Source of the DNA: Aestuariivirga sp.
GTDB lineage: Bacteria; Pseudomonadota; Alphaproteobacteria; Rhizobiales; Aestuariivirgaceae
DNA length: 64,000 bases
Assembly (NCBI RefSeq): GCF_020252395.1
Contig: NZ_JADCDB010000030.1
Location: forward strand, 1-64,000
Direction of reading: 5' to 3'
Part shown: piece by piece, positions 9,307 to 22,197 of the stretch
Position numbering within the stretch: position 1 is the first letter of the stretch
Layout: each line of letters begins with the position of its first letter
Notes under the pieces: model-generated
Database searches by the model: none
Seen by the model: only the letters and a program-made list of their open reading frames with translations
What the model was told of the DNA's origin: nothing
Program-made: the position numbers and the translations under genes

Positions 9307-10275
9307 TCAGAGCGATGCCTTGAGCTTGTCGTAGAGCTTTGCCTGGTCGCGCCTCGCCTTCAGCGCCTGCGCCATGGTCACTTCCACGAAACGCGCCGGC
9401 GTGTGGGGCTGCAACTGCCCGATCAGGTCCATGTCGGCGGAAATCACGGTGCCCACCATGAAATAGCCGCCGCCCGACACCGCATCGCGGTGAAGCACGA
9501 TCGGCTCCGTGCCGCCCGGCACCTGGATGGAGCCGTAAGGATAGCAGGCATCGACGATATTGGAGGGGTCGGAGCCCGCGCCGAAGGGCTGCTCGCGCGG
9601 CACGAATTCCAGCGGGCGTCCGCCGCGGAAGCGATAGCCGATGCGGTCCGCCTCCGGCGCCACCTTCCAGGTGTCGGTGAAGAAGTGCTTGCCCGCTTCC
9701 GCTGTGATGCGGTGCCAGTAGAGGCCGGGCAGCATGCGCAGTTCCGCCGGCATGCCCGGCGCGCGGCGCAGCTTCTCGGGAATGGAGCGGCCTTCCTTGG
9801 CGCCCCGGCCCTTGCCGACAGGCAGCTTGTCGCCCGCTTCGAGCTTGCGGCCTTTGAACCCGCCGAGCGCCCCCAGCGTGTAGGTGGACCGCGAGCCGAG
9901 AACCACGGGCACGTCGATGCCGCCCGAAATGGCGATATAGGCGCGGGCCCCCTTCTTGAGGAAGTCGAAGGACAGAGTCTGGCCCTTCTTCACCTTGAAG
10001 GAGGTCCAGGTCTCGCGCGCCTCGCCGTTGACCTTAGGCGGAAGCTCCGCGCCGGTGACGGCAACGGTCGCATCATCCGTGAACTGAAGTTCGGGGCCCA
10101 TGAACACGGCTTCCAGCACCGCTGCCCCTTCCTTGTTGCCAACCAGGAGGTTTGCGGCCTTGAGCGCCAGGCGGTCCATGCCGCCTGAGAGCGGGATGCC
10201 GATGTGGTAGTAGCCCGGCCGGCCCAGGTCCTGCACCGTGGTCGAAAGGCCCGGCTTGATGACTTTAACGGCCAT
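9307..10275 (-). CDS. pxpC: PxpC/KipA-type carboxyltransferase-like subunit
   Basis: A 322-aa protein of the CT_A_B (AHS2) family. The motifs TTVQDLGRPGYYHIGIPLSGGMD, seen here as TTVQDLGRPGYY followed by PLSGGMD, and GGIDVPVVLGSRSTYTLGALGG are classical. The family comprises 5-oxoprolinase subunit PxpC, KipA and the carboxyltransferase half of urea carboxylase. It overlaps the PxpB gene by 11 nt, so the two are coupled as usual. Together with PxpB it could be an oxoprolinase or the carboxyl-transferring part of a biotin-dependent enzyme with the carboxylase encoded upstream. Confidence 0.9.
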   Translation of the reverse strand: MAVKVIKPGLSTTVQDLGRPGYYHIGIPLSGGMDRLALKAANLLVGNKEGAAVLEAVFMGPELQFTDDATVAVTGAELPPKVNGEARETWTSFKVKKGQTLSFDFLKKGARAYIAISGGIDVPVVLGSRSTYTLGALGGFKGRKLEAGDKLPVGKGRGAKEGRSIPEKLRRAPGMPAELRMLPGLYWHRITAEAGKHFFTDTWKVAPEADRIGYRFRGGRPLEFVPREQPFGAGSDPSNIVDACYPYGSIQVPGGTEPIVLHRDAVSGGGYFMVGTVISADMDLIGQLQPHTPARFVEVTMAQALKARRDQAKLYDKLKASL

Positions 10276-11140
10276 TGAGCGCCCCCATCAGCTTGGCGTT
10301 GTAACCATCCATGTCCTTCTTGAACTCGCCGAGATCGAAGGTCACGTCCTTCATTTTCAGGTTGAACTTGCCTTTCTCCACCGCGGCCACCGTCGCGTCG
10401 TATTCCTCGCGGCCGATGGGTTTCCACTTCACGATGTCGCCCGGCCGGAACAGGCACATGAACTCCTTCAGGTGCTTGATCTTCTGATTGGGGTCATAGA
10501 TCGGCACCGGGGTGATGCCGAACATCTGGTAGCCGCCCGCACCCCGCACCGAATAAATGCAGCCGAAGCAGCCGCCATGGCCGACCGTGAGCTTCGGCGT
10601 ATCCGTCCGTGGACGGAGGTATTTGGGCGACTGTATTTGCCGCTTGCGGTCCACCATCTGGTAGAGGAAGGGAAGCCCCGCCACGAAACCCACCATCGAA
10701 ACGAACCACGGCGCTCCCGAATGCGCCTTGATGAAACCGTCGACGCCATCGAGGTTGTTGATGCGCGCGGTGTATTCGATGTCGGTCGATTTCGGGTCCT
10801 GGTGGCGCTCGCGGAAGCGCATCAGCGTCTCGTGCGTCCACGGGTCATTATAGAGCACTGGAATCTCGATGATGCGCGACTTGATGACGGGCTTGGCCTT
10901 GGCCGCCGCCTTTTCGATCGCCTTCAGCTCCTTGAGCATGTCCGAAGGCTTGATGACGTCCGGATCGAACTTCACCTGCATCGAGGCGTTTGCGGGGCAG
11001 ATCTCGGTCACCCCCTTGATCCTAGCCTTCTTGACCGCCGCCGTCATGGACAGCGACTTGAAGAAGGCTTCGAGCGACATCTCCTCGTCGCACTCGACGA
11101 AGATGTGCTCGTCGCCTCCATAGGAATACCGCGTCTTCAT
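10265..11140 (-). CDS. pxpB: PxpB/KipI-type carboxyltransferase-like subunit
   Basis: A 291-aa protein of the CT_C_D (AHS1) family. The block SMVGFVAGLPFLYQM (typical GFxPGFPYL) followed by PKYLRPRTDTPKLTVGHG and a late GGYQMFGITP matches PxpB/KipI and the urea carboxylase C/D domain. It is longer than the usual 215-240 aa, with an extended N-terminal half of about 120 residues. HGGCFGCIYS contains two close cysteines. It precedes and overlaps pxpC. Confidence 0.88.
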   Translation of the reverse strand: MKTRYSYGGDEHIFVECDEEMSLEAFFKSLSMTAAVKKARIKGVTEICPANASMQVKFDPDVIKPSDMLKELKAIEKAAAKAKPVIKSRIIEIPVLYNDPWTHETLMRFRERHQDPKSTDIEYTARINNLDGVDGFIKAHSGAPWFVSMVGFVAGLPFLYQMVDRKRQIQSPKYLRPRTDTPKLTVGHGGCFGCIYSVRGAGGYQMFGITPVPIYDPNQKIKHLKEFMCLFRPGDIVKWKPIGREEYDATVAAVEKGKFNLKMKDVTFDLGEFKKDMDGYNAKLMGALNGR

Positions 11141-11156
11141 TGCTGCGCCATCCTCC

Positions 11157-12524
11157 TCATGAGTTCAGTCTGTGGGCGTTGGCTTCGAGCCACGGCTCGA
11201 GCCAGCGCGTGTGGAAATCCGCCTTCGCGATGCTTGCGTCCCGCGCCAGCAATTGGTGCAGCGGCTTGGTGGTCGGCAGGCCTTCGACGCCAAGCTCGTC
11301 CAGCGCGCGGGCCATGCGGGCAATGGCGCCGCTGCGCGTCCCGTCCCAGACGATCAGCTTGCCCAGGAGCGAGTCATAGAAGGGCGGAACCTGGTAGCCC
11401 TGGTAGAGCATGGTATCGAAGCGCGTGCCGGGGCCGCCGGGAATACGCAGCGCCGTCACCGTTCCGGGGGCGGGCTGGAAATTTCTGGCCGGGTCTTCGG
11501 CATTGATACGCACCTCGATGGCGTGGCCGTTGATCCGCACGTCCTCCTGCCGGATCGACAGCGGCTCGCCGCCGCAGATGCGGATCATCTCGCGCACCAG
11601 GTCGATGCCGGTGATCATCTCGGTGACCGGATGCTCCACCTGGATGCGGGTGTTCATCTCGATGAAATAGAAGTGATGTGTCTCGTCGTCATAGAGATAT
11701 TCGAGCGTGCCGGCGCCGCGGTAGTTGACGGCCTCGGCCAGCGCCACGGCAGAAGCGCAGAGCTTGTCGCGCACGGCCTGCGGCAGCACGGCGGAGGGCG
11801 CTTCCTCCCACACCTTCTGGCGGCGGCGCTGCAGCGAACATTCGCGCTCGAAGCAGTGAACCGCGCGCTGGCCGTCGCCTAAGATCTGCACCTCGATGTG
11901 GCGCGCCCGCTCGATGACCTTCTCGATATAGAGGCCGCCATCGCCGAAGGCGGCCTTGGCTTCGGCGGAAGCCTGCGGCATCAGCGTCTCGAATTCGCCC
12001 ATGTCATGCGCGATGCGGATGCCGCGCCCCCCGCCGCCCGCCGCGGCCTTGATCATGATGGGAAAGCCGATGGCCATGGCGATGTGCCTGGCATGTTCCG
12101 GATCGTCGACCCGCCCGTCGGAGCCCGGCACCACGGGAACGCCTGCGGCCTCCGCTGCAACGCGGGCCGCCACCTTGTCGCCCATCACGCGGATCGAATC
12201 GCCTCTCGGCCCCACGAAGATCAGCCCTGCGGCCTCGACGGCATCGGCAAAACCTGCATTCTCGGCCAGGAAGCCATAGCCGGGGTGCACCGCGTCAGCT
12301 CCCGTTTCCTTCGCCGCCTTCAGGATGGCCTCGATGTTGAGATAGGATTTCGCGGCATGCGGCGGGCCGATGTTCACAGCCTCGTCCGCCATTTTCACCG
12401 CCAGCATCTCGGCGTCTGCCGCGGAATGCACCTGCACGGTCTTGATTCCAAGCTCCCGCGCCGCGCGGATGATGCGCACCGCGATCTCGCCGCGATTGGC
12501 GATGAGGAGCTTCTTGATGGCCAT
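11157..12524 (-). CDS. accC: Biotin carboxylase subunit (AccC-like)
   Basis: A 455-aa ATP-grasp biotin carboxylase of normal length. It has the N-terminal KKLLIANRGEIAVRIIRA, the glycine-rich ATP loop AAAGGGGRGIRIA, HIEVQILGDG, the catalytic-face ERECSLQRRRQKVWEE and MNTRIQVEHPVTEMITG. It would carboxylate the biotin on the next protein using ATP and bicarbonate. No acetyl-CoA carboxyltransferase (AccA/AccD) is nearby; the only carboxyltransferase-like proteins are PxpB/PxpC in the same operon, so this is probably not housekeeping fatty-acid synthesis. It lies 2 nt after the carrier gene. Confidence 0.93.
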   Translation of the reverse strand: MAIKKLLIANRGEIAVRIIRAARELGIKTVQVHSAADAEMLAVKMADEAVNIGPPHAAKSYLNIEAILKAAKETGADAVHPGYGFLAENAGFADAVEAAGLIFVGPRGDSIRVMGDKVAARVAAEAAGVPVVPGSDGRVDDPEHARHIAMAIGFPIMIKAAAGGGGRGIRIAHDMGEFETLMPQASAEAKAAFGDGGLYIEKVIERARHIEVQILGDGQRAVHCFERECSLQRRRQKVWEEAPSAVLPQAVRDKLCASAVALAEAVNYRGAGTLEYLYDDETHHFYFIEMNTRIQVEHPVTEMITGIDLVREMIRICGGEPLSIRQEDVRINGHAIEVRINAEDPARNFQPAPGTVTALRIPGGPGTRFDTMLYQGYQVPPFYDSLLGKLIVWDGTRSGAIARMARALDELGVEGLPTTKPLHQLLARDASIAKADFHTRWLEPWLEANAHRLNS

Positions 12525-12526
12525 GC

Positions 12527-12757
12527 TCAGCCGATCTCCGCCAGCGGCTGCCCGGCCATCACCGGCTCTTCGTTCTCGGCGATGAACGTGATCTTGCCCG
12601 CGGCCTCGGCCTTCACCTCGGTGAAGGACTTCATCACCTCGATCAGCCCGATGACGTCACCCTTGGCGACCTTGTCGCCGTCATTCTTGTAGGCGGGCTT
12701 GTCGGGCGAGGGCCTGCGGTAGAAGGTTCCGGGAAGGGGCGAGAGAAGCTGGGCCAT
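12527..12757 (-). CDS. Short biotin carboxyl carrier protein
   Basis: A 76-aa protein that is almost only a biotinyl domain. The biotin lysine lies in the turn IEVMKSFTEV, the EVMK variant of the usual AMKM motif, flanked by GDVIGL and AAGKITFI. There is no Pro/Ala-rich linker as in housekeeping AccB. The N-terminal LLSPLPGTFYRRPSPDKP is typical of carriers in oxoprolinase-type operons. It sits between pxpA and the biotin carboxylase and is the presumed carboxyl shuttle between that enzyme and PxpB/PxpC. Confidence 0.88.
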   Translation of the reverse strand: MAQLLSPLPGTFYRRPSPDKPAYKNDGDKVAKGDVIGLIEVMKSFTEVKAEAAGKITFIAENEEPVMAGQPLAEIG

Positions 12758-12781
12758 TGTCTGTCCTCGTTTCTGAAAATG

Positions 12782-13510
12782 TCAGGCAGCGTCGATATAG
12801 GGTTTCACGGCCTCGCGCACGGCTTTGGCGATGGCCACCGCATTGGGCGTGTCGGAGTGAACGCAGATCGCATCGGCCCTGACCGCGACGTCGGCGCCGC
12901 CAACACCCTTGACCTTGCCTTCGCGGATGGCGCGCAGGCACAGTGCGGCGGCATGGGCGGGGTCCTTCGCCTCATGCTCGCGGGTGATGATGAGCGAGCC
13001 ATCGTCGCGATAGTCGAGATCGGCATAGAATTCGGCGATGAACCTGTGGCCGCGCGCGGTGTAGACCTTCTCGTGGAAGGTGTTGATCATCCCCATGAGC
13101 GGCGCCTTGAAGACATCCGCCGCATCGGCCACCGCCTGGGCCACCTCCTCCATACGCGCCGCCATGCCATAGAGCGAGCCATGCGGCTTGATGTGGTTCA
13201 AGGTCATGCCCTCGGCCTCGAGGAAGCCTTTGAGCGCACCCACCTGGTAGATGATGCAGTTGGCGAGCTCGTCACGCCCCATCTTCATCTCGCGGCGGCC
13301 GAAGCCCTGGAGGTCAGGGAGCGAGGGGTGAGCCCCCACCTTGACGCCGTGCTTCCTGGCGAGCTGCACCGTCGTGCGCATATGGTTGAAGTCGGAGGCG
13401 TGGAAGCCGCAGGCCACATTGGCCACGTCGATCAGGGGCATCAGCCCCGCGTCGTCGCCCATTTTATAGAGGCCGAACGCCTCGCCCATGTCACAGTTGA
13501 TGACTGTCAC
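12782..13510 (-). CDS. pxpA: 5-oxoprolinase subunit PxpA, LamB/YcsF family
   Basis: A 242-aa LamB/YcsF protein. The N-terminal INCDMGEAFG, then VANVACGFHASD and VGAHPSLPDLQGFGRREM, match the conserved metal/polysaccharide-deacetylase-like fold core of PxpA. PxpA with PxpB and PxpC makes the widespread bacterial ATP-dependent 5-oxoprolinase. It is the first gene of the minus-strand operon and is read divergently from a LysR regulator, so the promoter for all twelve genes probably lies just upstream. Confidence 0.9.
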   Translation of the reverse strand: MTVINCDMGEAFGLYKMGDDAGLMPLIDVANVACGFHASDFNHMRTTVQLARKHGVKVGAHPSLPDLQGFGRREMKMGRDELANCIIYQVGALKGFLEAEGMTLNHIKPHGSLYGMAARMEEVAQAVADAADVFKAPLMGMINTFHEKVYTARGHRFIAEFYADLDYRDDGSLIITREHEAKDPAHAAALCLRAIREGKVKGVGGADVAVRADAICVHSDTPNAVAIAKAVREAVKPYIDAA

Positions 13511-13626
13511 CTGAACCTCCCGCCCTGTACATCCTGCGCTTAAGCGCCATCTCTCCCAAGAGCTTGCGGGACAACGGAAATATTGTAAAATCAGAAAAAC
13601 TGTATCCCGCTATCGGAAAATCAGAT
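13511..13626. promoter_or_regulatory. Divergent promoter region between the lactam operon and its LysR gene
   Basis: A 116-bp intergenic region with an AT-rich core. AAAATCAGA occurs at 13587-13595 and 13617-13625, exactly 30 bp apart, that is about three helical turns on the same face. LysR regulators usually bind two such sites in the shared intergenic region to control their own gene and the divergent operon. The two copies are adjacent to the lysR start, so autoregulation is plausible. Confidence 0.55.
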
Positions 13627-14535
13627 ATGACGCTGTCGCTCAAACAGGTGCGCTATTTCATCGCTACGGCGGATGCGGGCCAGGTCAGCCAGGCGGCGAT
13701 CGAGCTCAACGTCTCGCAATCGGCGGTGACGGCGGCGATCAAGCAGCTGGAGGAGGACACCGGAGTTTCGCTGTTCAAGCGGCTGCCCAGCGGTGTCTCG
13801 CTCACCGCCGAGGGGGCGCGCTTCCTGCAACATGCCCGCAACATCATGGCGGCGGTGAATGCAGCGCAGCATGCGCCGCTGACCGAGGATACGGCGATCA
13901 GCGGCACGGTGCGGATCGGCGTCTCCTACACGGTCGCGGGCTATTTCCTGCCGCGCCACTATACCCGCTTCGCGCGCAGCTACCCGCGCATCCGGGCGGA
14001 GCTCTATGAGCTTCCACGCAATGCGATCGAGGGCGGCCTCAAGGACGGCTCGCTGGACCTGGCCGTCATGCTGGTCTCCAACCTGCAGGACAGGAAGCGG
14101 CTGGTCTTCGAAACTCTGATCCGCTCCCGCCGCCGGCTGTGGCTGCCGGTCGAGCACAGGCTGCTGACGGCGGAAGCGATTGCGCTTGAGGACGTGGCGG
14201 CGGAACCCTATGTCATGTTGACCGTCGATGAAGCCAACCTGACTGCCGGACGCTATTGGAAGCCCACCGGGCTGAGGCCGAACGTCATCTTCACCACGTC
14301 TTCGGTCGAGGCTGTGCGTTCCATGGTGGCCGACGGCATGGGCGTTACCATTCTCTCCGACATGGTCTACCGCCCCTGGTCGCTCGAAGGCCAGCGCATC
14401 GAGCTGCGCAACATCGTGGCGGATATTCCGACAATGGATGTCGGGCTGGCCTGGAACCCCGCGAAAGAACTGGGTCCGGCGGCGCGCACCTTCCATGAGT
14501 TCATGAGCCTGTCCTTCGGCGGAGCGGGCAACTGA
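13627..14535 (+). CDS. LysR-family transcriptional regulator
   Basis: A 302-aa regulator when started at ATG 13627. The ORF track starts 21 codons earlier at a TTG, but the family begins with LSLKQVRYFIATADAGQVSQ. The N-terminal winged HTH (about residues 4-62) includes AAIELNVSQSAVTAAIKQLE. The remainder is the type 2 periplasmic-binding-protein-like effector domain. Its divergent placement makes it the likely regulator of the pxp/hyu/liv operon, with the imported cyclic amide or its product as co-inducer (inference). Confidence 0.9.
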   Translation: MTLSLKQVRYFIATADAGQVSQAAIELNVSQSAVTAAIKQLEEDTGVSLFKRLPSGVSLTAEGARFLQHARNIMAAVNAAQHAPLTEDTAISGTVRIGVSYTVAGYFLPRHYTRFARSYPRIRAELYELPRNAIEGGLKDGSLDLAVMLVSNLQDRKRLVFETLIRSRRRLWLPVEHRLLTAEAIALEDVAAEPYVMLTVDEANLTAGRYWKPTGLRPNVIFTTSSVEAVRSMVADGMGVTILSDMVYRPWSLEGQRIELRNIVADIPTMDVGLAWNPAKELGPAARTFHEFMSLSFGGAGN

Positions 14536-14553: not shown

Positions 14554-15504
14554 TCACGCGCCGGAAAACAGGCGTCCCGCCGGTGTGGCGGTGATCGCGC
14601 CATCCGCCGCGCGCGACAGGAACAGCGCGTCGAGACCAAGCCGTGCGGCGAGTGCGCCACCCTCGGCGGCCCCCAACACCATCAGCGCCGTCGCCCAGCC
14701 ATCGGCTTCGGCACAGGTGCCGGCGACGACTGTCACCGAAGCGGGGCTCGCGGTGAGCGGCGCGCCGCGCCGCGGGTCCATCGTATGCGACAACCTGCGG
14801 CCGCCGACGTCGACCCAGTGGCGATAATCGCCCGAGGTCGCCACCGCGCCATCCTCCAGCGCCAGCACCGAATGCGTCGCACGGCGCTCGGGGTCCGGCT
14901 GCTCCACCGCGATGCTCCACGGCTGGCCATCCGGCCGCAGGCCTGCCGCCCGCATTTCGCCGTCGATCCCGGCGAGAAAGGCGTGGATACCGAACTCCTG
15001 CAGCGTCTCCGCCAGCCGGTCCACGCCGTAGCCCTTGGCGATGCCATTAAGGTCGAGGGTGATCGCCCCGGTCTTCCTCAAGCGGCCTTCGCCAATCTCG
15101 AGCGTCTCCCAGCCCGGCCGGCGCTTCGCCGACAATGCGATGCGGATGCGCTCGCCGGTGGCCTGGCCGGGGCCGAAGCCCCACGCCGTCACGGCGTCAC
15201 CCATCCCCACATCGAAGGCCCCGCCCGAGTCACGCCCGATGGCAAGCCCAAGCCGCAGCACGTCGAGCAGCCGGCGCGGCGCGTCCATCCATTCGCCAAC
15301 GGGGGCGCGGTTGATGCGCATCAGGTCGCTGCCGGGCTTCCAGCCCGACATCTGCTGGTCCACCTCGTCCACCGCATCCTGCAGCGCCGCTTGCAGCGGA
15401 GCGACGTCAAAACGCGCATCGGTGAAGAACAGCGCCGACCAGCGCGTGCCCATGGTCGCGCCATTCAGCGCATGGCGTGCCGGTTCAGTAGACATCTTCG
15501 GCAT
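14554..15504 (-). CDS. apbE: FAD:protein FMN transferase (ApbE family)
   Basis: A 316-aa ApbE-family protein that transfers FMN from FAD to a Ser/Thr of target proteins. It has NGATMGTRWSA, the substrate-pocket GGAFDVGMGDAV, the hallmark DLNGIAKGYGVDR and the Mg-site SHTMDPRRGAP. No signal peptide is seen, although ApbE usually works outside the cytoplasm; the N-terminus overlaps the preceding gene by 20 bp, so an upstream start with a signal is unlikely. The neighbouring DUF2271 protein carries a TGAS-type acceptor motif and is the obvious target. Confidence 0.9.
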   Translation of the reverse strand: MPKMSTEPARHALNGATMGTRWSALFFTDARFDVAPLQAALQDAVDEVDQQMSGWKPGSDLMRINRAPVGEWMDAPRRLLDVLRLGLAIGRDSGGAFDVGMGDAVTAWGFGPGQATGERIRIALSAKRRPGWETLEIGEGRLRKTGAITLDLNGIAKGYGVDRLAETLQEFGIHAFLAGIDGEMRAAGLRPDGQPWSIAVEQPDPERRATHSVLALEDGAVATSGDYRHWVDVGGRRLSHTMDPRRGAPLTASPASVTVVAGTCAEADGWATALMVLGAAEGGALAARLGLDALFLSRAADGAITATPAGRLFSGA

Positions 15505-17692
15505 AGCGTCCTTCGGCCCGCAGCAGCTCGGGGGTCAATCCCGTGGGCGCCAGCATGTGCGCCAGCGCCTGGCTCACGCCGGCGGCCATGCCGCGCCCGC
15601 CGCACACCATGATGCGCGCACCCTCGCGGATCAGCTTCACCACCTCCTGCGCCTCGGCGCGCAGCGCGTCCTGCACATAATGCGGCCTCCTGCCGCGCGA
15701 GGCCGCGGTGACGAGGCTCGTCAGGCGGCCCTCCGCATGCCACTGCATCATCTCCTCGCCATAGAGAAAGTCGCTCGCCGCATGGCGCATGCCGAAGAAC
15801 AGGTGCATGGCGCGGTGCTGCGCATTGGCGCGGATGAAGCCCGCCAGCGGCCCGATGCCGGAGCCGGCGCCGACGAGGATCACCGGCACCTTGCCCCCGT
15901 CCACGCGGAAGGCCGGATTGGGCTTGAGGAAAGCGAGTGCCGTGCCGCCCGGCTCCATCATGGTCAGCTGGCCGGAGCACAACCCGCCAGGCTGGCGGCG
16001 CACCACGATCTCGATGAAGCCGTCGTCAGACGCAGACGCCAGCGAATAGAAGCGCGGCACGGTGGAACCCTGCGGGATCACCCCCAGAAGATCGCCCGCT
16101 TCAAAGCGCGCAAAGCCTGCGCCGGCGAGGCGCTGCCACAGCGAGGACTTTGGCACGGCAAAGCGCAGGATGGCGCTCGGCGCCTGCACCTCCGCGCCAT
16201 AATCGCGGCGCGAGACCAGCGTGATCGCGGTCGCCGCGGGCAGCACAGGCTGGTGTTCGAGGCTGAGCGGCAGGCCCAGCACGGCGCCGAGGTTACTGCC
16301 CCAGCGCGCGAAATCCTGCGGCGACTGGCGATCGACCGTGGCGACGCCGGGCATCTGCTGCCAGCCCTTCGCCGCTGCAAGCGATGCAACACGCTGCGCA
16401 TAACCGCAGAAAGCGGGGAAGCTCGAATCGCCAAAGCCCAGCACCGCCAGCTGCGCCGCGGGCGGCGTCTCCATCGCCTCGAGCTTCGCGAGAAAGCCCT
16501 TGGCCGAGGCCGGTTCGCCGCCATTGCCATAGGTCGCGGCAAGGATGAGAACGCGATGTGCATGCTGGAGCTTCGCCGCATCGAAGGACGACAGCGCCGC
16601 GGCATGCACCTGCAAGCCGGCGTCATGCAGCGCCTTGTGGAGCGTCGCGGCGAAGCCCCAGGTGCTGCCGCCCTCGCTGCCGGCGAGGATCACCGTATCG
16701 GCCCTGGCGAGCGGCGCATTGTTGTGGATGCGCGGCCGGCTGCGGCGGCCGGCGAGCCAGATCAGCGTGCCGGTGGCGCCCATCAGCGGCACGCTCAGCG
16801 CCATCAGACCGAGGACCAGGCCCAGCACCGAAGCGCCCTGCCCCGTATGCAGCATATAGATGGTCTCGGACACGCGCTCCCAGCCGCTGAGCGTCTGCCA
16901 GGCCAGCAGCGCGCCATTGCCCTGGTCGATATAGCCGGTGCCCGTGTCGGTCTTCACGGTGAAGACATCGGTCGCATCATCGGCCGCCGGGACGGAGAGC
17001 TCGCGCAGGCTCGTCACCGGCGTGCCTTGCAGGAAATTGATCGCCGACACCTTGACCCCGGTGTTACCGCTGACCGTGGCGGGAATCGCCAGCGCCGCCG
17101 GCTGGTCGGGCAGCAGGCCAAAGGCCGAGGCCGTCATATAAAGCGCCGTGACGGAGGACAGCATGAGGCCCACCACCGCAATGCGCGCGATCTCGACATG
17201 GAGGCGCCCTGCGAGCGGGCCCTTGATGGGCGCGAACCAGCGCCGCCAGCCGCCCGCACGCCGCGCCACCAGCAGCATACCGGACACGGCAAGCACCAGC
17301 ATCGCCAGCGCACCCAGCGCCATCACGATGCGCCCGCCATCCTCGAGGAACAGCGAGCGGTGGAAGTTGGTGAGCCAGCGCTGCACCGGGTTCGGATCGG
17401 CGGAGGCCACCGCCTTGCCTGTGGCCGGATCGATGGTCGCCGCCTCGGCCACGTCGCCGTTGAACCAGTAGGCGGTGATGCGGCCCGAGGGTGACCGCTT
17501 GATCTGCTCGACGCCCGGATAGCGCGCCGCGATGCGGCCGGCGAGATCCGCCACGCTCAAGGAGGTCTCTGCCTGCGGCGCCGTAAGGCGGTCGGCCGCC
17601 GGGAACACCGACAGCGCGGCGCCGCTCAGCGCCAGCATGAGGACGGACAGCAGGGCGAGAAGCCCCGGCCAGCGGTGCAGCAAGCGGATCAT
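15485..17692 (-). CDS. PepSY membrane protein fused to flavodoxin and NAD(P)H-flavin reductase
   Basis: A 735-aa transmembrane reductase. TM1 is at about 6-28, followed by a periplasmic PepSY domain (30-110). Conserved histidines NFHRSLF and MLHTGQGAS lie at membrane edges near residues 110 and 258. Further TMs are near 122-142, 168-190 and 268-292. The cytoplasmic half is a flavodoxin domain (about 330-465, FMN loop GSEGGST, AATYGNGGEP) and a ferredoxin-reductase-like unit (FAD motif RFYSLASA, NAD(P) motif VGAGSGIGPL). It should move electrons from NADPH through FAD and FMN to the membrane or periplasm. Similar fusions are annotated as ferric or siderophore reductases. It is coupled to apbE. 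Confidence 0.88.
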   Translation of the reverse strand: MIRLLHRWPGLLALLSVLMLALSGAALSVFPAADRLTAPQAETSLSVADLAGRIAARYPGVEQIKRSPSGRITAYWFNGDVAEAATIDPATGKAVASADPNPVQRWLTNFHRSLFLEDGGRIVMALGALAMLVLAVSGMLLVARRAGGWRRWFAPIKGPLAGRLHVEIARIAVVGLMLSSVTALYMTASAFGLLPDQPAALAIPATVSGNTGVKVSAINFLQGTPVTSLRELSVPAADDATDVFTVKTDTGTGYIDQGNGALLAWQTLSGWERVSETIYMLHTGQGASVLGLVLGLMALSVPLMGATGTLIWLAGRRSRPRIHNNAPLARADTVILAGSEGGSTWGFAATLHKALHDAGLQVHAAALSSFDAAKLQHAHRVLILAATYGNGGEPASAKGFLAKLEAMETPPAAQLAVLGFGDSSFPAFCGYAQRVASLAAAKGWQQMPGVATVDRQSPQDFARWGSNLGAVLGLPLSLEHQPVLPAATAITLVSRRDYGAEVQAPSAILRFAVPKSSLWQRLAGAGFARFEAGDLLGVIPQGSTVPRFYSLASASDDGFIEIVVRRQPGGLCSGQLTMMEPGGTALAFLKPNPAFRVDGGKVPVILVGAGSGIGPLAGFIRANAQHRAMHLFFGMRHAASDFLYGEEMMQWHAEGRLTSLVTAASRGRRPHYVQDALRAEAQEVVKLIREGARIMVCGGRGMAAGVSQALAHMLAPTGLTPELLRAEGRYAEDVY

Positions 17693-17704
17693 CGATAGCG
17701 GGCC

Positions 17705-18178
17705 TTACATCGAATAGGTGAAAGAGGAGATATAGCGGCGGCCCTTCACGGGCGTGCCGGCGCCGGCCGAAGTGAGCGGCACCACCACGTCATTGGGGCT
17801 CTCGCGCAGGTTCTCGGCCGCGGCGTCGATATGCAGCTTGTAGCCCTGGTCGAACAGCGCATCCTTGAGGTCCAGCGTCACCTCCAGAGTGCGGCCCGAG
17901 CCGACCGAGGCGCCGGTGATGCCGTTGATCTGCGAGGTGTCGCCGCCGGTGGCATTGTACCAGCCGGCGAGGTGCTGGAAGTAGCGGGTGCGCGAACCGG
18001 CAAGCCACAGGCTGCCGGCATATTTGTTGTTCTTGTCGGTGACGTAGAGCGCCAGATAGGCATTGTTGCCGCCGTAATCCTTAAGCTGCGCGCTCAGCGT
18101 CACGGGCCTGGCCATGGCCGCCGCAGGGAAGGAGAGCGCCGTGGTGAGCGCCAGGGCGGCAAGAAGGGACTTCATCAT
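17705..18178 (-). CDS. DUF2271 periplasmic protein, predicted flavinylated electron carrier
   Basis: A 157-aa secreted protein. The signal peptide MKSLLAALALTTALSFPAAA ends near AMA-RP. The DUF2271 domain follows (LALYVTDKNNKY, WLAGSRTRYFQHLAGWY). Near residue 85 lies GITGASVGSG, which matches the [ST]GA[ST] acceptor motif recognised by ApbE; DUF2271 proteins usually have SGAT here. Start ATG 18178 has GGAGA 9 nt upstream; the longer ORF is an artefact. It lies 12 bp upstream of the PepSY reductase gene and would receive its electrons. Confidence 0.8.
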   Translation of the reverse strand: MMKSLLAALALTTALSFPAAAMARPVTLSAQLKDYGGNNAYLALYVTDKNNKYAGSLWLAGSRTRYFQHLAGWYNATGGDTSQINGITGASVGSGRTLEVTLDLKDALFDQGYKLHIDAAAENLRESPNDVVVPLTSAGAGTPVKGRRYISSFTYSM

Positions 18179-18209: not shown

Positions 18210-18569
18210 TTACTTGACCTGCACCTTGGGCGCGGTGCTGTTGTCGAACAGCCCGTTCTGCGGCGGCGGAACGCTGCCGGCGGGGGCGGGCGCCGCGGCG
18301 GCCGGGCCGCAATTGCCATCGTCGTCCTCGCATTCGTCCTCATCGTCATCGTCCGATCCGCGGCGGCTGACGCTGCCGCCTTCCTTCTCGTGGTCATCGT
18401 CCTCGGCCAGCATCATCGGGCGCTGCTGGTCATCCGATCCGAGACGTGTTGACAGCGGCGACACGGTCTCGCCCGTGGCTGCCTTATGCAGCGCGCTCCA
18501 GGCGGGAAGTGCGATAGTCGCGGTCAGGGCGGCGGAAGCGAAAAGCAGGGTCAGCGTCTTTTTGGTCAC
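18210..18569 (-). CDS. Secreted acidic protein of unknown function
   Basis: A 119-aa protein started at GTG 18569 with AGGAGA upstream; the longer ORF lacks support. The signal peptide TKKTLTLLFASAALTATIALPAWS is clear. The mature part has an Asp/Glu cluster (GSDDDDEDECEDDDGNCG) with two cysteines, followed by a Pro/Ala-rich stretch and a short polar tail. I do not recognise a family. The acidic cluster resembles low-affinity metal-binding tracts. It is the first gene of the DUF2271-PepSY-apbE transcript. Confidence 0.7.
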   Translation of the reverse strand: MTKKTLTLLFASAALTATIALPAWSALHKAATGETVSPLSTRLGSDDQQRPMMLAEDDDHEKEGGSVSRRGSDDDDEDECEDDDGNCGPAAAAPAPAGSVPPPQNGLFDNSTAPKVQVK

Positions 18570-18666: not shown

Positions 18667-18781
18667 TGCGGGCTCCGGGGCGAAGTGGCCCGAAACATGA
18701 ACGTCCCGTTCATCGTGGCCATTTCCACCCCGATCATCGCCGGGGTTGCCGGGCGCTCCCGTTGCGATGGCCGTCTCCCCT

Positions 18782-18861
18782 CATCATCGCCGGGCTTGTC
18801 TCGGCGATCCTTTTCCGCAGCCACCAAGAAAGATGCCCAGGACAAGCCCGGGCATGATGAT
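18782..18861. repeat. Dispersed-type imperfect palindrome
   Basis: CATCATCGCCGGGCTTGTC on the left and GACAAGCCCGGGCATGATG on the right form an imperfect inverted repeat of about 28 bp per arm around a short centre. The arms carry the GCCGGGCTTGTC/GACAAGCCCGG words typical of intergenic palindromic repeats dispersed in many alphaproteobacterial genomes. No second copy is seen in this window. Confidence 0.55.
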
Positions 18862-18988
18862 GTCAAGCAAGAGTTTGCCTGTGGTCGCAGGTACAATGAT
18901 GAAGAATAGCCGAACATAGCACGGGCAGCGCGCGCTGTCAAGGACTATTTTCCGAAAATGGGATTTACCATCCGAAAACGAACCCTCG

Positions 18989-19421: not shown

Positions 19422-20081
19422 ATGCGAATCCTGCTGATCGAGGACGACACGGTACTGGGCGCCGCGGTGCGCGACCAGATCGCCGCCGGCGGCCACTCGG
19501 TGGACTGGGTCAAGCGTCTCGACGCCGCGCACGACGCCATGGCGGGTGCGGCCTTCGACCTCGTGCTGCTCGACCTGATGCTGCCGGATGGCCTCGGCCT
19601 CACCTTCCTCAAGGCGCTGCGCAGCCGCGGCGACGTGACGCCAGTCATCATCCTTACAGCGCTCGACCAGGTGTCGGACCGCATCAGCGGCCTCAATGCC
19701 GGGGCGGACGATTATCTCGTCAAGCCCTTCGACCTCGCCGAACTCTCCGCCCGCATCGGCTCGGTGGCGCGGCGCTATGGCGGCAACCCCAGCCCCATCG
19801 TCACCCATGGCGCGCTGGAGATCGACCGCGCGGCGAAAAGCATCCGGCGCGGCGGCAAGCCGGTCACCCTCACGGCGCGCGAGTGGGCGCTGTTAGATGC
19901 CTTCCTGGCGCGGCCGCGGCAATTGCTCTCCAAGGCGCTGCTCGAGGAGAAGCTCTATGCCTTCGATGCCGAGGTGGAGAGCAACGCCATCGAGGTGCAT
20001 GTCAGCCGCCTGCGCAAGAAGCTCGGTCACGGGGTAATCCACACCGAACGCGGCCTCGGCTACCGGCTGGGCACGCCGTGA
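19422..20081 (+). CDS. OmpR-family response regulator
   Basis: A 219-aa response regulator. The receiver domain (1-115) has the acidic pocket EDD at 7-9, phospho-acceptor Asp51 in LLDLMLPDG and the conserved Lys in YLVKPFDL. The C-terminal winged helix (about 125-217) contains LTAREWALLDAFLARPRQLLS and VEVHVSRLRKKLG-type recognition helix residues. It overlaps the kinase gene (GTGA), so the pair is coupled. Likely targets are the PepSY/DUF2271 genes and itself. Confidence 0.93.
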   Translation: MRILLIEDDTVLGAAVRDQIAAGGHSVDWVKRLDAAHDAMAGAAFDLVLLDLMLPDGLGLTFLKALRSRGDVTPVIILTALDQVSDRISGLNAGADDYLVKPFDLAELSARIGSVARRYGGNPSPIVTHGALEIDRAAKSIRRGGKPVTLTAREWALLDAFLARPRQLLSKALLEEKLYAFDAEVESNAIEVHVSRLRKKLGHGVIHTERGLGYRLGTP

Positions 20082-21439
20082 GAAAACCCTGGAGCCTGCA
20101 GGCGCGGCTCGCCATCTCTCTCGGCCTGCTGCTCACGCTGCTCTGGGCCGCCGCCGCCTCGGTCACGGCACTGCTCCTGCGCGGCGAGATCAACCAGGTC
20201 TTCGATTCCGCCCTCCAGGAAACGGCCGAGCGCCTGCTGCCGCTCGCCGTCATGGACATCGTCGGCCGCGAGGACGATGCCGGCACCCAGCGCCTGGGAG
20301 CGCTGCGCGAGCGCAATGAATATTTCACCTATGTGGTGCGTGACGGGACGGGCCGCATCCTGCTCCAGTCGCATCATGCGGACCCGAACATCTTCCCGCC
20401 CTATGACGGGGCGGGCTTCCGCCAGACCGAGGGCTTCCGCATCTACAACGACGATGCGCTGAAGGGCACGGTGCGGATCTCAGTGGCCGAGCCCATGAGC
20501 CACCGCGCCACCGTGTTCCGGGAAATCGTCCTGGCGCTCGGCCTGCCGCTGCTGCTCGTCATTCCCATCGCACTCGCCGTCATCATCTTCGCGGTGCGGG
20601 CGAGCCTCGCGCCGCTGCGGCGCTTCCGCAAAGGGCTCGCGGGCCGCGGCAGCAGCGATCTCTCAGCCGTGCCGGCCGACGGGCTGCCGGCGGAACTAAA
20701 GCCGCTCGCCGCCTCGCTCAACGATGTGCTCGCCCGCCTCAAGGCGGCCTTCGAGGCCGAGCGCAGCTTTGCCTCCCATGCCGCGCATGAGCTACGCACT
20801 CCGCTCGCCGGCGCCATCGCCCAGGCGCAGCGCCTGCGCGGCGAGACCGGCGAGCCCGCCGCCGCCGCGCGCGCGGCGGAGATCGAGGCAACGCTGAAGC
20901 GCCTCACGCGGCTGTCCGAACGCCTCATGCAGCTGGCCCGGGCGGAAGGCGGCCGGCTGCGCCTCGATCAGCCGCGCGACCTCAGACCCGCCGCGCGCAT
21001 CGTGACGGAGGATGCGGCGCGGGGCACGCCCGAGGGCCGGGTCACGCTTCGGCTTCCCGCGGCGCCCGTGCTCTCCGACCTCGACCCCGATGCTTTCGGC
21101 ATCCTGCTTCGCAACCTCATCGAGAATGCCCTGCGCCATGGCGCGGCGGATGGACCCGTCGCGGTCACGCTGGCGGCGGACGGCCTGCTGACGGTGGCGA
21201 ATGACGGACCGGTGGTGCCGCCTGAAACGCTCGCGCGCCTCACCCGGCGCTTCGAGCGCGGCGGGTCGGGCAACGAGGGCAGCGGCCTCGGCCTCGCCAT
21301 CGTCGCGGCCATCGCCGGCCGGCTGAACAGCACGCTCATCTTGCGTTCGCCCGCCACGGGGCGCACACAGGGTTTCGAGGCGGCGATCAGGCTTCCGCTC
21401 GCGGCAGATCAAACCGTCACGAAACAGGCCGATGCATAG
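20078..21439 (+). CDS. Sensor histidine kinase
   Basis: A 453-aa kinase starting at GTG 20078 within the GTGA overlap; the longer ORF in the track is not supported. TM1 spans about 11-34 and TM2 about 150-174, flanking a sensor loop of about 115 residues. The DHp helix has the phospho-His in SHAAHELRTPLAG (about His237). The ATPase domain has N-box NLIENALRHG and G-box GSGLGLAIV. The signal is unknown; related QseC/TctE-type kinases sense metals, carboxylates or envelope redox state. Confidence 0.92.
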   Translation: MRKPWSLQARLAISLGLLLTLLWAAAASVTALLLRGEINQVFDSALQETAERLLPLAVMDIVGREDDAGTQRLGALRERNEYFTYVVRDGTGRILLQSHHADPNIFPPYDGAGFRQTEGFRIYNDDALKGTVRISVAEPMSHRATVFREIVLALGLPLLLVIPIALAVIIFAVRASLAPLRRFRKGLAGRGSSDLSAVPADGLPAELKPLAASLNDVLARLKAAFEAERSFASHAAHELRTPLAGAIAQAQRLRGETGEPAAAARAAEIEATLKRLTRLSERLMQLARAEGGRLRLDQPRDLRPAARIVTEDAARGTPEGRVTLRLPAAPVLSDLDPDAFGILLRNLIENALRHGAADGPVAVTLAADGLLTVANDGPVVPPETLARLTRRFERGGSGNEGSGLGLAIVAAIAGRLNSTLILRSPATGRTQGFEAAIRLPLAADQTVTKQADA

Positions 21440-21471: not shown

Positions 21472-22197
21472 ATGAGCGCCAATGAAGCGGCGAAACTTCC
21501 CTACCAGCCGGCTCACGAGGAGCTGCACTACATCAACCGCTCCGGCTGGCTGCGCGCCGCCGTGCTGGGCGCCAATGACGGCATCGTCTCGGTGTCGTCG
21601 CTGGTCGTCGGGGTCGCGGCGGCTGACCCCACGCCGTCCGCGGTGCTGATCGCGGGCTTCGCCGGCCTCGCCGCCGGCGCCATGTCCATGGCGGCGGGCG
21701 AATATGTGTCGGTGAGTTCGCAGTCCGACATCGAGCAGGCCGACATCGCGCGCGAGCGCCAGGCGCTTCTCGACACGCCCGAGGCGGAGGAGCACGAGCT
21801 TGCTGCGATCTATGAATCGCGCGGCCTGTCGCCCGCCACCGCGGCCCTGGTGGCGCGCGAGCTGACCGAAAAGGATGCGCTCGGCGCGCATGTGCGTGAC
21901 GAGCTCGGACTGTCCGAGGTGCATGCCGCCAACCCGCTGCAGGCGGCCATGGCCTCCGGCCTCACCTTCTCCGTGGCGGCAGCTCTTCCCGTTCTTGCCG
22001 CGGTCTTCGCGCCCGAGGGCCGGATCATTCCCACCGTCGTGGTCACTACACTGGTAGCCCTCGCCGGGCTCGGTGCGCTGGGCGCCCATGCCGGGGCGGC
22101 GCCGAAGCTGCCCGCCACGCTGCGCGTGCTGTTCTGGGGCGCGGCGGCCATGGCCATCACCGCCGGCGTGGGCCATATCTTTGGCGTCAGCGTCTAG
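21472..22197 (+). CDS. VIT1/CCC1-family iron/manganese transporter
   Basis: A 241-aa membrane protein of the VIT family, which exports or sequesters Fe(II) or Mn(II). TM1 includes GWLRAAVLGANDGIVSVSSL and is followed by AGAMSMAAGEYVSVSSQ, both diagnostic. The cytosolic metal-binding helix region is Glu-rich (TPEAEEHELAAIYESRGLS, EKDALGAHVRDELGL). Two or three further TMs follow. It is 32 bp after the kinase gene on the same strand and may be co-transcribed, tying the redox/two-component locus to metal homeostasis. Confidence 0.88.
   Translation: MSANEAAKLPYQPAHEELHYINRSGWLRAAVLGANDGIVSVSSLVVGVAAADPTPSAVLIAGFAGLAAGAMSMAAGEYVSVSSQSDIEQADIARERQALLDTPEAEEHELAAIYESRGLSPATAALVARELTEKDALGAHVRDELGLSEVHAANPLQAAMASGLTFSVAAALPVLAAVFAPEGRIIPTVVVTTLVALAGLGALGAHAGAAPKLPATLRVLFWGAAAMAITAGVGHIFGVSV

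Follow-up and report, generated by a model that had tools for sequence, protein, structure and literature searches.

A signal-less ApbE beside an exported DUF2271 protein in a PepSY-like reductase locus of Aestuariivirga

Introduction

Gene clusters combining a PepSY-like membrane protein, a DUF2271 protein and the flavin mononucleotide (FMN) transferase ApbE were described by Meheust et al. (2021), who showed flavinylation of DUF2271 and linked the clusters to iron reduction (PMC8238504). Here we analyze such a cluster in a 64,000-nucleotide stretch of Aestuariivirga sp. (contig NZ_JADCDB010000030.1, hereafter the window), in which genes for ApbE, a PepSY_TM reductase and a DUF2271 protein follow one another at 14554-18178, all on the minus strand. 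These coordinates are exactly those of the original prediction, made from the sequence of the window, and its three family assignments are borne out by Pfam matches well over the curated cut-offs.

Among the related systems, Caulobacter CCNA_03155-03159 is a target of Fur and is required in the presence of EDTA (ethylenediaminetetraacetate; PMC12004947), and related clusters of Caulobacter and Alteromonas are under iron regulation or required during chelation (PMC12004947, PMC3751524, PMC7190382). The Caulobacter cluster has PepSY, DUF2271, ApbE and NADPH flavoprotein genes as does the window, but its PepSY protein and flavoprotein are encoded separately, it has a DUF4198 gene, and it is Fur-regulated. 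ApbE itself requires little of its substrate, as a seven-residue motif or tag suffices (PMC12052999), and in Klebsiella pneumoniae an ApbE that, like that of the window, has no signal peptide matures a fumarate reductase. That substrate stays in the cytosol, whereas the only recognisable one of the window is exported.

Results

The locus shares with PepSY-like systems a PepSY_TM protein with a fused NAD-binding domain, a DUF2271 protein with an [ST]GA[ST] motif, ApbE and, as in some of them, VIT1, together with the proposed role in iron reduction (PMC8238504). The PF03929 protein is encoded next to the ApbE and DUF2271 genes, where the published definition allows a distance of five genes, and the product of at least one key gene (DUF2271) carries a signal peptide. 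The locus departs from the published systems in having Asn at the Asp position of the motif and in lacking a DUF4198 gene, which was not found among the neighbouring genes scanned with Pfam and is frequent but not required in PepSY-like systems. The published text consulted does not discuss a cytosolic ApbE, an Asp-rich/tail protein or a two-component/PepSY_2 unit. The locus is a member of the published class, and is a variant of it in its predicted cytosolic ApbE, its tail protein and its two-component/VIT1 setting.

The ApbE protein matches PF02424 with 257.6 bits, and its HTMDP and ADGWATAL stretches align with those of solved ApbEs, the closest being 5mgy (E=2e-59). Its open frame of 326 residues extends about 10 codons above the ATG, and the protein starts at the ApbE domain, with neither a signal peptide nor a lipobox. 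A longer N-terminus was considered and rejected, since an in-frame stop lies within about 10 codons upstream in the window and the upstream frames are short in 68 of 77 relatives. The original prediction had implied that ApbE acts in place on the exported protein, a view at odds with the absence from this enzyme of a signal peptide and of any space for it.

We collected 80 related loci with their flanks (81 with the window). ApbE is linked to DUF2271 in 77 of the 81, and some of the missing cases are contig ends. Signal peptides were scored by a hydrophobicity rule and inspection rather than by SignalP, and controls missed by the rule were read by eye. None of the 77 DUF2271-linked ApbEs of the window subfamily carries a signal peptide, and in a phylum-wide survey of stand-alone DUF2271-adjacent ApbEs only 1 of 49 does (L172, a lipoprotein). 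By comparison, 59 of 70 control ApbEs, taken from the same phylum and not chosen by DUF2271, have a signal by the rule, and 10 of the other 11 show a lipobox by eye, which brings the count to 69/70 (L286 being without); the difference between DUF2271-linked and control ApbEs is significant by the rule (Fisher p=2e-21). On a tree the signal-less state requires 3 changes, versus 46 in shuffles. Lipoprotein ApbEs carry a mean of 0.36 Cys in the ApbE domain (70% have none) versus 1.6 and 3.1 in the signal-less sets, values from which taxon bias was not removed; the higher content is as expected for a reducing compartment, and provides a second, independent sign of a cytosolic enzyme.

A signal-less ApbE could still reach the periplasm by a non-classical route and flavinylate DUF2271 there, as in the standard model. 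Signal-less export has a precedent in Rhizobium (PMC5963308), and ApbE-DUF2271 fusion proteins are exported. Nevertheless, the signal-less domain is richer in Cys than that of lipoprotein ApbEs, the state is clustered on the tree and consistent in 125 of 126 loci, and an N-terminal extension is impossible in most loci, so that we consider this route unlikely. The four clear fusions (L200, L201, L203 and L204) differ from the stand-alone ApbEs of DUF2271 clusters in having a signal peptide, while in a fifth (L035) its presence could not be judged. Degenerate forms of the DUF2271 motif (HGIARET, DGVTRPT) are frequent in these fusions. In addition, a short N-terminal motif, RVLVPxxL..P, recurs in the signal-less ApbEs of classical DUF2271 clusters (L156, L157, L173, L176 and similar loci) and may be a docking peptide.

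The partner of this enzyme is predicted to be exported. The DUF2271 protein (PF10029, 103.9 bits against a cut-off of 27.3) has a signal peptide probably cut after AMA, and a signal-like N-terminus is present in 81/81 relatives; no twin-arginine signal was seen among the N-termini of the subfamily that were inspected. A model (mean predicted local distance difference test score, pLDDT, 77.6) describes a beta-sandwich in which motif residues 85-91 sit in a loop leading from helix 71-76 to strand 97-105. Comparison of the protein with solved structures found no close fold. Weak partial DUF2271 matches (20-25 bits, profile positions 64-114) also occur in frames of about 225-277 residues in other genomes (L017-L031).

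The GITGAS motif is genuine: its [ST]GA[ST] core aligns with the known DUF2271 flavinylation site, the one modified in the Amantichitinum ursilacus protein by its own ApbE (PMC8238504), and it is conserved in relatives. A set of 45 close relatives shows no variation at I87, G89, A90 or S91, and the last Ser/Thr is invariant in 78/78 diverse aligned DUF2271 proteins, in which the middle residues vary and GPT and SAT forms are common. Where the original prediction left the acceptor as Thr or Ser, analogy with the known site favours Ser91 (codon 17908-17906), the last residue of the motif, and not the Thr. The prediction was also right about [ST]GA[ST], but overlooked that the position six before the acceptor, an Asp called strictly conserved in the canonical D-x-x-[ST]-G-A-[ST], is Asn85 here. 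Among 84 relatives this position is N in 62, D in 21 and S in 1; the motif reads NGITGAS in 62 and DGITGAS in 19, the rest being near variants. It is highly improbable that an ordinary secreted protein matches the motif by chance: a four-residue pattern is short, but this one is aligned to a known site, ends in the residue that is invariant in 78/78 diverse DUF2271 proteins, and is linked to apbE. In a separate observation, many DUF2271 proteins (L036-L045 and L156-L199) carry GPT, SAT or APT where the published motif has GA[ST], and only the last Ser/Thr is invariant, so that the motif as published may be too narrow.

The genome holds one ApbE, one DUF2271 protein, one PepSY_TM protein and one full-length VIT1 (at this locus). 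In a tally of 30 genomes, including the source genome, the signal-less ApbE beside DUF2271 is the only ApbE at E<=1e-20. The other known ApbE substrates, FMN_bind, NqrB/RnfD and DUF3570, are all absent from the genome, and the exported DUF2271 protein is therefore the only recognisable substrate. An ApbE of this kind might instead modify a different, cytosolic protein and leave DUF2271 of this lineage unflavinylated, as the Klebsiella and trypanosomatid cytosolic ApbEs modify intracellular fumarate reductases (PMC12052999), and the replacement of the motif Asp by Asn would agree with this. The idea is weakened, however, by the missing substrate families in a complete genome, by the invariant GAS of DUF2271 and the linkage of ApbE to it, and by the minor effects of an Asp-to-Ala change at the motif position with the Klebsiella enzyme (PMC12052999). 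The reductase was also considered as a cytosolic ApbE target and rejected, as it has no conserved motif ([ST]GA[ST] is sporadic, in 6 of 79 relatives). We regard a hidden cytosolic substrate as improbable, slightly more so than non-classical export of ApbE.

The reductase is composed of PepSY_TM (PF03929, 2e-32), Flavodoxin_1 (9e-13) and NAD_binding_1 (2e-12) domains; FAD_binding_6 falls short of its threshold (19.7 versus 21.1 bits), the single match under cut-off among those of the three proteins, and is supported by fold comparison. Its AlphaFold2 model (pLDDT 81.6) has four transmembrane helices (2-37, 114-146, 160-190 and 288-317) and two periplasmic PepSY regions. H6, H111, H165 and H282 are invariant in 79/79 relatives, and the topology model places H6/H165 at the cytosolic and H111/H282 at the periplasmic face. 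On the strength of this conservation and of the model, the four residues are probable heme ligands of a diheme cytochrome. From the positively charged loops RRAGGWRRWF and GRRSRPRI, the flavodoxin and reductase domains are assigned to the cytosol.

Foldseek matched the reductase module to cytochrome P450 reductase (CYPOR), CysJ and nitric oxide synthase (NOS) reductases. With CysJ and cytochrome P450 reductase it shares the order of a flavodoxin followed by an FAD/NADPH reductase domain, and its C-terminus, DVY, is as in CysJ; in the window, however, it forms one polypeptide with a PepSY_TM membrane domain that precedes it. The SR...YVQ stretch of CysJ and NOS is retained, and S665 and R666 of the NADPH site are present in 79/79 relatives. 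NADPH is favoured as donor because the module is of the CysJ/CYPOR type and keeps SR...YVQ.

FoxB of Pseudomonas aeruginosa, a diheme ferrisiderophore reductase, also has PepSY_TM and four heme-ligating His, two per face (PMC13038864, PMC11334425). The reductase of the window, for which heme binding is predicted, differs from it in carrying its own diflavin module and in being encoded beside a flavinylation substrate. A search of solved structures with the sequence of the membrane half gave no FoxB match, and matches to the diflavin module prevailed in the fold search; the comparison with FoxB therefore draws on Pfam, the four His and the published text.

The gene immediately preceding DUF2271 encodes a small Asp-rich protein that matched no Pfam or NCBIfam family. 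Its C-terminal tail, NPAPAGTVAPPxNGLFGxGxPPxVxVN, ends a small secreted protein near DUF2271, usually from the immediately preceding gene, in 65 of 81 loci (relatives include L070, L063 and L069). The body in front of the tail is Asp-rich in 42 loci (with acidic runs of up to 27 residues) and PepSY_2 in 23. That one tail occurs on two bodies unrelated to each other is suggestive of a docking or sorting role. The unannotated Asp-rich/tail protein is likely a new component of these metal reductases. By eye, the frame before DUF2271 resembles cytochrome b561 rather than the Asp-rich tail protein in L060, L071, L089, L112, L113 and L124.

The features of the locus are listed in Table 1. The original prediction named the three genes, and overlooked the Asp-rich protein, PepSY_2, the divergent two-component system and VIT1. 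The DUF2271 and reductase genes are separated by 12 nucleotides, the reductase gene and apbE overlap by 20, and the GTG start of the kinase overlaps the stop codon of the regulator. The promoter candidate precedes the Asp-rich, DUF2271, reductase and apbE genes, with 1 match found versus 0.5 expected in shuffles. Gene arrangement is very stable among the 81 loci (PepSY_2 in 76, the regulator in 72, the kinase in 69), and VIT1 is in the fetched flank of 16; the nearest named related locus is L046 of Aestuariivirga, with 92% DUF2271 identity. An RExxE iron-binding motif of the sensor kinase (RERNE in the window) is kept in just 33 of 69 relatives and was dropped as evidence.

Table 1. Features of the locus, with positions in the window
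Feature	Position	Strand	Basis
ApbE (FAD:protein FMN transferase), 316 aa	14554..15504	minus	PF02424 E=1.8e-76
PepSY_TM-flavodoxin-NADPH reductase, 735 aa	15485..17692	minus	Pfam, AlphaFold2 model, Foldseek
DUF2271 protein, 157 aa, Sec-type signal peptide	17705..18178	minus	PF10029 E=7.1e-30
Flavinylation motif N-G-I-T-G-A-S, DUF2271 residues 85-91	17906..17926	minus	alignment
Small secreted Asp-rich protein, 119 aa, GTG start after AAGGAG	18210..18569	minus	conserved C-terminal tail PAPAGSVPPPQNGLFDNSTAPKVQVK
Sigma-70-like promoter TTGACA-17-TATGTT, extended TG	18913..18941	minus	consensus match only
PepSY_2 small secreted protein, 97 aa	18989..19282	minus	PF13670 E=2.8e-27
OmpR-type response regulator, divergent	19422..20081	plus	PF00072 + PF00486
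Sensor histidine kinase, 2CSK_N periplasmic domain, GTG start	20078..21439	plus	HisKA + HATPase_c
VIT1-family Fe/Mn transporter	21472..22197	plus	PF01988 E=9e-66

Several other elements were seen around the locus. An intergenic palindromic element at 18780-18860 contains GACAAGCCCGG in both orientations (against an expectation of 0.03 for the window), resembles short intergenic repeats of Hyphomicrobiales and has a terminator-like hairpin inside. Minus-strand genes at 10265-13510 for an AccC-like biotin carboxylase, LamB/YcsF (PxpA-like) and neighbours look like a 5-oxoprolinase-type cluster, which a LysR regulator at 13564-14535 adjoins. Contig C17 of the genome holds a second, partial VIT1 match in a 386-residue frame (L290), possibly an MbfA-like ferritin-VIT1 protein.

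Discussion

Taken together, the locus probably encodes a PepSY-like flavin/heme reductase that passes electrons to a flavinylated periplasmic DUF2271 protein for metal reduction, with a cytosolic ApbE loading DUF2271 before or during Sec export. Electrons would pass from cytosolic NADPH to FAD in the ferredoxin-NADP reductase-type domain and FMN in the flavodoxin domain, then to an inner heme b (H6/H165) and an outer heme b (H111/H282), and finally through FMN on DUF2271 Ser91 to a metal or metal chelate. The route of the original prediction, from NADPH through FAD, FMN and PepSY to flavinylated DUF2271, fits this anatomy with the transmembrane hemes left out; it is the published PepSY-like model (PMC8238504) and not a new inference.

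A ferric (or other oxidised) metal would most likely be reduced in the periplasm, just outside the inner membrane. Metal reduction, which the original prediction had raised with a "perhaps", is our inference too, supported by association with the adjoining VIT1 and the iron-linked relatives. The relay could serve another metal, or a purpose other than iron uptake, such as reducing copper for the assembly of oxidases, or the handling of metal/redox stress with VIT1 as exporter and two-component control. Proteins related to VIT1 commonly carry metal out of the cytosol, and a two-component system, PepSY_2 and a strongly acidic secreted protein adjoin the relay. VIT1 handles Fe/Mn, not Cu, which speaks against the copper role. 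Copper is a serious alternative to iron for PepSY_TM proteins, one of which, CrpH, supports heme-copper oxidases (PMC13038864). On the other side, the PepSY-like/DUF2271 clusters of Caulobacter, Shewanella and Alteromonas respond to Fur or iron (PMC8238504, PMC7190382, PMC3751524), and we hold a non-iron purpose to be possible but the less probable choice.

As to the compartment of flavinylation, cytosolic ApbE would most likely put FMN on DUF2271 before or during Sec export, rather than a periplasmic ApbE doing so afterwards. Loading before or during export is the simplest reading because ApbE is signal-less and present as a sole copy, and its only recognisable substrate is exported. We lean, by a small measure, toward this mechanism operating across many Pseudomonadota, with cytosolic ApbE flavinylating the unfolded DUF2271 precursor and the FMN-bound form then crossing SecYEG, a channel that may widen to ~22 A (PMC5963308). 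The literature searched, outside which most subscription papers lay, yielded no discussion of pre-export flavinylation.

Several points weigh against these proposals. Signal peptides were called with a hydrophobicity rule and inspection, not SignalP. The canonical motif Asp is replaced by Asn. A DUF2271 protein bearing Ser-FMN would have to pass through SecYEG. The family also includes loading in the periplasm, since the tested A. ursilacus ApbE had a signal peptide (PMC8238504). Regarding the metal, most loci lack VIT1, which may be a metal exporter.

The covalent flavinylation of proteins that are exported is generally placed outside the cytosol, as a step relying on FAD that reaches the periplasm. 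A signal-less ApbE lineage paired with Sec-exported substrates would, if the proposal is true, follow a different logic, in which the cofactor is loaded inside and the protein is then exported via Sec. Pre-export loading would remove the need for periplasmic FAD, and would overturn the view that loading of extracytosolic ApbE substrates takes place outside in every case. The pairing of a signal-less ApbE with an exported DUF2271 protein recurs in more than 100 related gene clusters.

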